DNA of 64,000 nucleotides. It comes from Taxawa tesnikishii (nom. ined.) (Eukaryota > Ascomycota > Dothideomycetes > Dothideales). This document shows, in pieces, positions 26,326-44,690 of the stretch (position 1 is its first letter; each line of letters begins with the position of its first letter). The position numbers and the translations under genes are program-made. The DNA is taken from positions 992,001 to 1,056,000 of the forward strand of contig JAPDRO010000003.1 of NCBI GenBank assembly GCA_030247885.1, in the 5' to 3' direction. A model generated the notes under the pieces. The model searched no databases. It was given only the letters and a program-made list of their open reading frames with translations, and had not been told where the DNA came from.

Positions 26326-27581
26326 GGCTGTGTCGAGGATTTGTGTGTGATGCGAGGATTGCCAATCTGGGGACTTGGATCGGGTCTCGTGAGGGTCTCG
26401 TGAGGGGATGGTGGTCTTGATTGGTTTGGAGATTGTCTTTCCGGACCCCGAGGGATTGGTGGGAATTGTGGACTTGTCGATTGCGGTACTTGAGATGGAG
26501 GTGGAGGAAGTGATTGGGTGTGTACTCTAGGAGATGTGTGGTGCCAAGGGACAGGAGCAGACTGCTGCTTTCTTATGGCAGGATCGGAACGAGGGAAGAT
26601 TTGTTAGAGTGTAGAGCTAGGGTCTAGCATGATGATGTCTTTCGGGCGGTTGGACTAGGGAATGCCATGACGGGCGTGGTCCAGGTCGGGGCTGGCCATG
26701 GTTTAGTTGATGCATACGAAGACGGTCCGACGTCTCCGGTGGGTGGCGGTCGAGGTGAATGGGCATGGGCAGTGGGCGGTGTCGATCATAGTGATGGCAT
26801 GGGCTTTCTGAGATTAGATCATGGGAAACACAACGCAGGACGAGTGGAAAGCTCCTGCCGGTGATCGACGGAGTCACTCCCGGTTCCGGTTCCGTTGGAG
26901 CGAGCTCGGACTCCCATGCGCCAAGATGATGTCAACAAGTCTATTCGCGCGGAGGCTCCAGAGGCAAGACAAGGCATCCAGCACGGAGCAACAAGAAGTA
27001 CACCAGGTACACCAGGTACACCAGGTACACCAGGTACACCGGCTACGCCAGGCACAACAACCGTCCGACTGTTCCGTTTCACCCCTTCTCACACTCTCCG
27101 AGACCACGCAAGCACTTGAATTACGAGTGACGAAAACAGAGTCGCGGCACGGAAAACAACAGTGCCTTGCCCTCTTTCTCATATTAAGTCCTCCACACAA
27201 GGAACAGCGCAAACTATAGAGAGCAGACGTCCAGCTCTGACCCTCCCCATCTACTGCTCTTGCTCCGCCGCCAAGACACCCGTCCGCCCAAGGAGGAAAG
27301 AAGGCGGCTTTTGGTTTGTTGAGATTACACAAAAGCCTCCTCTGTTACCCTGTCTACCTTCCACACCGCAGGGGCAAAATGAACAAAAACACTCTGCCGA
27401 GAAGTGAAGGACCGTATCACAAGATGTATCATACCCAGAAGGACTGATTCAACTGTAGAGAGAAGAAAAGGAAAGGCAACCAATGCAGAAGAACCTCGTC
27501 AAACGCTCCCAGTTTTCGAATGCCCTCCTTGAAACGCCGGTAAGAGAACCCAGATGTGAAAGTTGATGCGTGGGGTCGTTA
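26326..27581. other. intergenic with minisatellite
   Basis: Promoter of the small hypothetical gene and 3' flank of the Bni4-like gene. Open frames through the tandem repeat at about 26998-27050 are repeat-driven and not supported. Confidence 0.5.
26998..27050. repeat. 9-base tandem repeat (about 5 copies)
   Basis: A 9-base unit ACACCAGGT is repeated about five times, the last copy diverged. It would read Thr-Pro-Gly on the plus strand but lies in no supported gene. Confidence 0.8.
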
Positions 27582-42866: not shown

Positions 42867-44690
42867 TCATGCCGCCACGCCCTCGACAACGCCTTCGATA
42901 TACAACGAATGGACTTTTGGCCCCGGGTATCTCCTCGTTCCCCAAACAAACCACCAGATAGTCGTGACCACCAAACACCCAACAAGGATGACACTGTTCC
43001 AGTTCATCAGCTGTGTCGTTACTGGCATGGCGTATGCTGCAGGACTTTGTCAGCCTCGTTCTTGATCGAGCATGTTCTGGACGACTTACGGAAGCAAAAC
43101 ATGATATCGAAGAAGATTATCAGACCGCAGCTGATGGCATTGATCACATAACCCCAATTGCCCATCCAGAACGGTCCTGGAGGTACATTCTTACGTCCGG
43201 TCAACAGGTGCGGCAGGATGGCGCACAGATAGCTTGCCGAGGTCAGGACGATGAAGGATCCCACCAGATCACTGAATGCCGTCTTGGAGCCGAGCGCAAT
43301 CGCACCGAAACCGGAACACAGGATGGCGCAGAGGATTGTTGACGGGATTGGACAGGAAAGACGCTCGTTGACGCTCGAGAAGACGCCTGGGAACGGAGTT
43401 GCGTTGTCACGGGCGAGAGCCCAGAACAAACGGCCGACCTGTGAAGCGAATTAGGACATAGAATTCATCATCGAAACAGGAGAGAACGCTCACCGTCAGG
43501 AAAGTGCCGACCACACAGATCATGATGGAAAAGAAGATGATGAGAAGAAGACCGAAAGTGCCACCCTTGTTTCCCGTCGCCTGGGCATACACAGCCGCGA
43601 GGGGAAGGATCCACTGCTAGACAGGACGGCGTCCAGGTCGGTGATGGCATAAAGAATGGCGATGGCGTAGCAGAACGCCGTCAGCGTTCCCAGGATGATC
43701 TGCGCAGCCACAGCCTTTGGAATGTCCTTCTTTGGGTTCGGCAGCTCCTCCGCCATGTGCGTTACCGAATCAGGGGTACCTATATACCGAATCAGGACCG
43801 TTTGATACGCCAGTCAGATATGCCACACCACCACTTACCTATTGTAAAGGCACCGTTTAACACGCCAGTCAGAAATGCCACACCACCACTCCAGCCCGTC
43901 GCGTTGTTCCAATCTTTCCATACGAATGCACTGCTTGCGTGCTCGCTCGGCATGGCAGCGCAGACAGTGATTGTCACAATGCCACCAGCGATGAGGAGGA
44001 AAAGGCCGAGATTCTGCATCATTGGGATGAGGCGGTTGCCGAAGATGCAGAAGGCGCAGCAGCTCCACGTTATGCAGAGGAAGGCGACGTATGTATGCCA
44101 TGGCTGTGCGACAAAGTCTGGGTGGAAGATGGCGTACATCTGGACCACGATGTTTGAAGGAATCGATACAATGGAAGCCAGGTCGAAAATCCATCCGAAG
44201 AAGTTGAGGTAGCCGGTGAAGAAGCCCAACGCGCGACCGTACTTAGGGCCAGGCGTCACGGACGCCCAGTGGTAGACACCTCCTGCCGAAGGTATGGCTG
44301 ATGCGAGTTCTGCGATGGACGCAGCGACGAAGCCATAGTAGACGCAGGCCGTCAACAGCTCGTACAGAACACCTGGAGGACCGCCATTGAGGATGGAGAC
44401 TGTGAGTGAACCGCCAAACGCAACCCAAGCATTGTCAATGGTCAAAGCCAAGCCGCAAATGCTCAGCAGGCCGTATTGACGGTGCAGTTGATCCCTGTGC
44501 CCGGACGCATTCACGATCTGGGCAGAGTCAGCTGAAAGTCTTGTACGATGCTGCATATACGCACTGTTCCTGTCTTGGTCTCTATGGAGACTCTCCTGTC
44601 CGCAGCCTGCCGCAAGAGTTCTGGTGTGAGCACCTTCTCCTCGTCTCCACCTTGCGACTTCTTCTCGTCTGAATACGTCCTATAGTCCAT
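42867..44690 (-). CDS. APC-superfamily permease (choline / GABA permease type)
   Basis: Five exons: 44690-44565, 44517-43839, 43779-43494, 43438-43090 and 43036-42867. The start MDYRTYSDEKKSQGGDEEKV is followed by about 12 predicted membrane helices, with GLALTIDNAWVAFGGSL in TM1, PSAGGVYHWAS, GTPDSVTHMAEELPNPKKDI, VGRLFWALARDNATPFP and PYAMPVT. This arrangement is the fungal choline/GABA permease branch (yeast Hnm1, Uga4), a proton-coupled amino-acid or choline importer; the substrate is not deducible. One C is missing in the C run near 43610-43614 (GSFPLAAVYAQATGNKGG expected). Corrected, all exons keep frame. The intron at 43780-43838 is unusual and described as a finding. Confidence 0.88.
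43780..43838 (-). repeat. 59-base intron made of copies of the flanking exons
   Basis: Intron 2 of the permease. Within it 43798-43835 is 35/38 identical to coding sequence at 43853-43890 of the upstream exon. Positions 43785-43796 are 12/12 identical to 43763-43774 of the downstream exon. Only the terminal bases that form the donor (GTAAGT) and acceptor (TATAG) are not accounted for. Confidence 0.85.

Follow-up and report, generated by a model that had tools for sequence, protein, structure and literature searches.

Few intron gains have a known source sequence. In one published model the source is local: an adjacent copy of exon sequence containing AGGT gives rise to the intron, the donor coming from the first copy and the acceptor from the second (PMC3443670, PMC4974935). 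A tabulation of 188 gains by tandem duplication has Cryptococcus among its species (PMC3443670). In a survey of fission yeasts a definite source was reported for two of 62 intron gains (SPOG_01682 and SOCG_00815), both seemingly tandem duplications, and for one of the two an EST shows splicing at variance with the annotation (PMC3629103). Parallel intron gains have been reported in the Dothideomycetes, and the same source puts other intron duplication in Zymoseptoria, including tandem duplication within a gene, at less than 1% of the single gains (PMC4457414).

Here we describe the second intron of a permease gene, nearly every base of which can be traced to neighbouring coding DNA. It appears to be a clear example of a mode of intron origin which is known but seldom caught, and a possible origin can be read off for each of its splice signals.

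The permease gene and its introns

The window, that is, the whole 64-kb stretch of DNA analysed here, belongs to a genome assembly of 29.4 Mb in 34 contigs. The product of the gene under study (Table 1) matches PF13520 (AA_permease_2) with an E value of 1.5e-27. Many of its relatives bear the name "choline transport protein," and the best named ones are from Elasticomyces elasticus and Neodothiora populina (protein search, best 120 of 1258 matches). Based upon the reading frame and the relatives, intron 2 is presumably used as an intron. As the original prediction had it, splicing restores the path FTIG-TPDSVTH in the translated gene model, whereas read-through stops after 14 extra residues; the spliced protein agrees with that of the relatives and would be left unchanged by the predicted splicing.

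Elsewhere in the window, positions 26998–27056 hold a nine-base tandem repeat, 6.6 copies of GTACACCAG. Two permease-like loci of the genome, L010 (G000 C2:34735) and L015 (G000 C2:383672), lie about 349 kb apart on one contig and carry the same 78-residue stretch; they are possibly the result of a recent gene duplication.

Table 1. Features of the permease gene and of its second intron (positions in the window)
Feature	Position	Strand	Basis or remark
Choline/amino-acid permease gene (Pfam AA_permease_2)	42867..44690	-	Gene model; ATG at 44690, stop 42867-42869, four predicted introns
Intron 1, ordinary, 47 bases	44518..44564	-	Gene model
Source unit of the tandem duplication, 55 bases, AGTGG...ATAGGTA	43836..43890	-	End of exon 2 with the three leading bases of the intron; sequence parse
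Intron 2, 59 bases, phase 1, GTAAGT...TATAG	43780..43838	-	Predicted splice, from frame and relatives
Second copy, 59 bases in all (39 copied bases, the 13-base patch and ATAGGTA)	43777..43835	-	Parse; 36/39 at offset 55
13-base patch CCTGATTCGGTAT, with CTGAT branch-point motif	43784..43796	-	Replaces 9 bases of the unit; 12/13 copy the downstream exon
Likely branch-point motif CTGAT	43791..43795	-	Branch A 12 bases before intron end
Exon-3 source of the patch, CCTGATTCGGTA	43763..43774	-	12/12 identity
Exon-3 stretch with short C run	43598..43612	-	Gene model; frame shifts by one base in GCA_030247885.1
Intron 3, ordinary, 55 bases	43439..43493	-	Gene model
Intron 4, ordinary, 53 bases	43037..43089	-	Gene model

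Copy structure of intron 2

A recount agrees with the two identities on which the original prediction was built, namely 35 of 38 bases between positions 43798–43835 and 43853–43890, and 12 of 12 between 43785–43796 and 43763–43774. The match to the upstream exon extends further, to 36 of 39 identical bases at an exact offset of 55 bases, and the source unit directly adjoins its second copy. Within that second copy nine bases of the unit (GCCTTTACA) have given way to thirteen (CCTGATTCGGTAT), twelve of which repeat the downstream exon. The claim that the intron is made of copies of both flanks stands insofar as both are present in it, but the downstream piece is a separate 13-base patch lying inside the second copy. 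A 7-base direct repeat, ATAGGTA, is found at both edges of the insert. Under this parse, and allowing three substitutions, 58 of the 59 bases of intron 2 are traceable to local coding DNA, which leaves at most one base without a local exon source; no remnant of an older intron is therefore required.

The duplicated unit contains AGGT, and the GT of its first copy and the AG of its second are the splice sites. The donor GTAAGT had been placed where the copied stretch begins, and this point proves to be the junction GTA/AGT of the 55-base tandem duplication. The acceptor TATAG likewise derives from the copy, in that its ATAG is the unit's end as repeated in the second copy.

Chance resemblance between intron 2 and its flanks was ruled out by resampling and by a scan for near-tandem matches. 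The best ungapped score against the 150-base flanks was 30 for intron 2 and 5–8 for introns 1, 3 and 4; with 200 resampled versions of intron 2 the maximum was 10, and with resampled versions of introns 1, 3 and 4 it was 10, 16 and 9. None of 2000 resampled 17-mers attained the 12-base match of the patch. Scanning the 64 kb for near-tandem matches gave three raw hits, of which a single one, the duplication at intron 2, was left after the complexity filter; three Markov-resampled windows yielded none.

The direction of copying is clear. Two of the three differences between the copies change codons in the intron copy, one for F, found in 237 of 238 motif-bearing relatives, the other for L, found in 236 of 238 (255 examined, among the matches listed), and the conserved residues are kept in the exon. 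Since it is the intron copy whose changes hit conserved codons, the exon is the source and the intron the recipient. The copies differ at 3 of 39 bases, and the protein of the nearest relative differs at 18% of exon-2 residues (among the matches listed). Set against each other, these two values suggest that the gain is probably younger than the split from that relative.

Splice signals and the branch point

A CTRAY motif is present in each of introns 1, 3 and 4, where its A precedes the last base of the intron by 10, 12 and 13 bases, respectively. The CTGAT of the patch in intron 2 stands at a distance of 12, and a CTGAC which came with the upstream copy at a distance of 34. A motif-based scan of the window, in which the permease gene's own introns are counted, gave 20 donor-branch-acceptor triplets at distances of 9–13 versus 4.6 expected from ten resampled windows, and three at a distance of 27 versus 0.2 expected. 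The patch would presumably have supplied the branch point of intron 2; a CTRAY motif could also have come to stand at that position by chance.

Origin of the intron

Intron gain by local duplication around an AG/GT, as originally proposed, is the best explanation for this locus in view of the donor at the junction, the acceptor at the end of the copy, the changes in the intron copy, and the nearest relatives which read through. We put at roughly 80% the probability that this lineage acquired intron 2, as a new spliceosomal intron, via tandem duplication of exon sequence. A 55-base exon stretch ending in ATAG/GTA would have been duplicated in tandem, whereupon the joining of GTA to AGT would have created the donor GTAAGT and the ATAG of the second copy would have become the acceptor. 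With the donor at the junction and the acceptor in the second copy, splicing would remove the extra copy and restore the old protein. Either in that event or subsequently, 13 bases would have taken the place of nine towards the 3' end of the second copy, 12 of the 13 being copied from the downstream exon, and with this patch a CTGAT branch-point motif would have come to lie at a distance of 12 bases from the end of the intron. We infer both the number of steps in this origin and the role of the CTGAT.

A one-step version of the same explanation, the odds of which overlap with those just given, invokes a single repair event. A staggered break at ATAGGTA would have been followed by a polymerase copying the left flank and then the right, and by rejoining, to leave a composite insert between 7-base direct repeats. 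Such an event is favoured by the presence of copies of both flanks in the insert, by ATAGGTA on either side of it, and by the very short templated insertions described at yeast breaks (PMC11724301), although those reported there are inverted and the present ones direct. We nevertheless regard it as tentative and on balance unlikely: simple tandem duplication already accounts for 46 of the 59 bases, the junctions, judged by eye, have essentially no microhomology, and short flanking repeats are not diagnostic, direct repeats of at least 5 bases being reported for 26% of conserved Drosophila introns (PMC3443670). Somewhat more doubtful again is a fuller form, in which one break-repair event built a complete working intron, its donor, acceptor and correctly spaced branch point included, out of both coding flanks at an AG/GT site used for introns by other fungal lineages, the geometry of the patch and not later mutation having set the branch spacing.

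Relatives and phylogeny

The remaining explanation of some weight is that an ancestral intron occupied the site, had its interior overwritten by copies of the flanking exons, and was lost in most relatives. It was considered against the results of protein searches (best 120 of 1258, best 120 of 577, and 25 of 25 matches), the second of which has a length limit that favours broken-off open reading frames. Among the matches listed, the alignment reaches the site in 225 of 231 proteins, which include the window's own P0027 and four that end just before it. Seventeen others of these 225 break off exactly after NGAF-x-[IV]G (P0110, P0113, P0122, P0124–P0126, P0128, P0129, P0131, P0132, P0135–P0140 and P0229). 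The tails of 11 of the 17 begin with E, K or M, as would be read from GTGAG/GTGAA, GTAAG/GTAAA or GTATG donors, and these 17 relatives, in other fungal clades, seem to have ordinary introns at the position of intron 2. The absence of an intron elsewhere is suggested by open reading frames of unspliced type among the matches listed, a type assigned by source label (jgi, lgn or ena without ncbi, uniref or nr). P0001, P0108 and P0180, for example, run into intron 4, as unspliced frames would.

The original prediction looked for relatives without an intron here, and regarded a normal, unrelated intron at the same position in all relatives as evidence against a gain; it mentioned neither the seeming introns of other relatives nor the one-base shift in exon 3. 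What we found bears on the first point and only in part on the second: the nearest relatives read straight through and appear to be without it, the 17 mentioned above (among the matches listed) seem to have one, and 13 of those 17, tested together with the window gene, do not form one clade with it. The closest paralog in the genome itself, L003 (54%), has no intron at the site. In two other paralogous permeases, L022 and L028 (C29, C3), an intron seems to lie downstream of the site, at most about ten codons away.

Trees were inferred from hand-picked rows: 94 of 230 other proteins for a quick tree, 69 of 255 for an exon-2 tree, and 65 of 255 for a longer tree, which leaves out the intron-bearing P0229, P0125, P0137 and P0140. 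In both the quick tree and the exon-2 tree the rows which break off at the site fall into a group of 3, a group of 13 and, by itself, the distant P0229. The quick tree (95 rows) has four state changes and places the window gene in a 15-row group (SH-aLRT 80). Support for this grouping is weak; no break at the site occurs in any of its 12 unspliced-type rows, and neither of the other trees confirmed the group. In the exon-2 tree (70 rows), which was made with more care, the window gene takes no firm position, lying near the base beside P0229, itself long and distant as well as intron-bearing. That tree has three state changes with or without the window gene's intron, and independent gain is accordingly not demanded by it. 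In the longer tree (66 rows, more columns), for which two state changes are enough, the gene again takes no firm position, here inside a fork of 43 rows. For groups named after the trees had been seen, holding the window gene with 13 near rows in the longer tree was not rejected (p-AU 0.413), and a single clade of the window gene with 13 of the 17 carriers was rejected (p-AU 0.0015). The four nearest rows by path in all three trees (P0180, P0001, P0089 and P0045) are of the read-through kind.

Because of the 17 relatives with seeming introns an ancient intron keeps some probability, although a rather low one in our estimation. In its favour, their frames break off exactly at the site with mostly donor-like tails, the GTA and ATAG ends of intron 2 are so short that old splice sites may have been reused, and on the exon-2 tree the intron costs no extra state change. 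On that same tree, however, an intron at the root would need eight losses, and to this are added the rejection of the one clade and the near-complete derivation of intron 2 from local exon. A gain at a site also used by other lineages is the simplest reading of these data, and an independent gain by tandem duplication is probable.

The shift in exon 3

Far less likely is the idea of a pseudogene, with the 59-base insert as a duplication that is left unspliced and disables the gene. It draws on the one-base shift of frame in exon 3 of GCA_030247885.1; apart from this shift no other break was seen in the gene model. P0232, an open reading frame with the source label lgn (which we take to be the Logan assemblies) on a contig of 40,616 bases, is in frame across the C run and 100% identical over the 54% of the query covered. 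P0027, the window gene's own frame, has three member sequences and is likewise from a contig of 40,616 bases; its tail, GKWWCGISDWRIKRS, is the start of intron 2 read through. Given the equal lengths, P0027 and P0232 would appear to lie on one contig, and their assembly may represent the same strain or reads as GCA_030247885.1. Since both occur in another assembly, intron 2 is probably no assembly artefact, and we take gene and intron as probably real. The one-base shift is probably an assembly (consensus) error or a strain difference. A simple pseudogene is made unlikely by the in-frame P0232, and the insert has a donor, a branch motif and an acceptor at the spacing usual for this gene.

Introner-like elements are known from the Dothideomycetes (PMC4457414), but insertion of one here has next to no likelihood and is refuted, at the sensitivity of the search, by a comparison of intron 2 with the 29.4-Mb genome (very common words skipped), which returned just two matches, the intron itself and the neighbouring source exon.

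Comparison with known systems

The preferred reading, gain by tandem duplication, agrees with the published model as described for vertebrate ATP2A1 in having an adjacent exon copy with AGGT, a donor from copy 1, an acceptor from copy 2 and an unchanged protein. Unlike that case as described, the second copy in intron 2 is partly swapped for a copy of the downstream exon which carries a branch-point motif, suggesting a second, templated patch as the source of the branch point. SPOG_01682 and SOCG_00815 are likewise fungal introns from tandem copies of nearby exon; the repeat units given for them are of 24 bases, whereas intron 2 has a single 55-base unit plus a patch (PMC3629103). The potato RdRp intron is also a recent gain by tandem duplication with a donor from formerly coding sequence, but most of its signals are reported to come from an existing intron and those of intron 2 would come from coding DNA (PMC4974935).

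With the introner-like elements of the Dothideomycetes, as reported, intron 2 would share a recent gain and a parallel gain at a position occupied in distant species; unlike them it belongs to no repeat family and its source is local (PMC4457414). As the site is seemingly occupied in other fungal lineages, intron 2 could serve to test whether AG/GT sites attract repeated gains. Taken as a whole, the case would appear to be that of the published tandem-duplication model with a patch added, in an unusually legible form.
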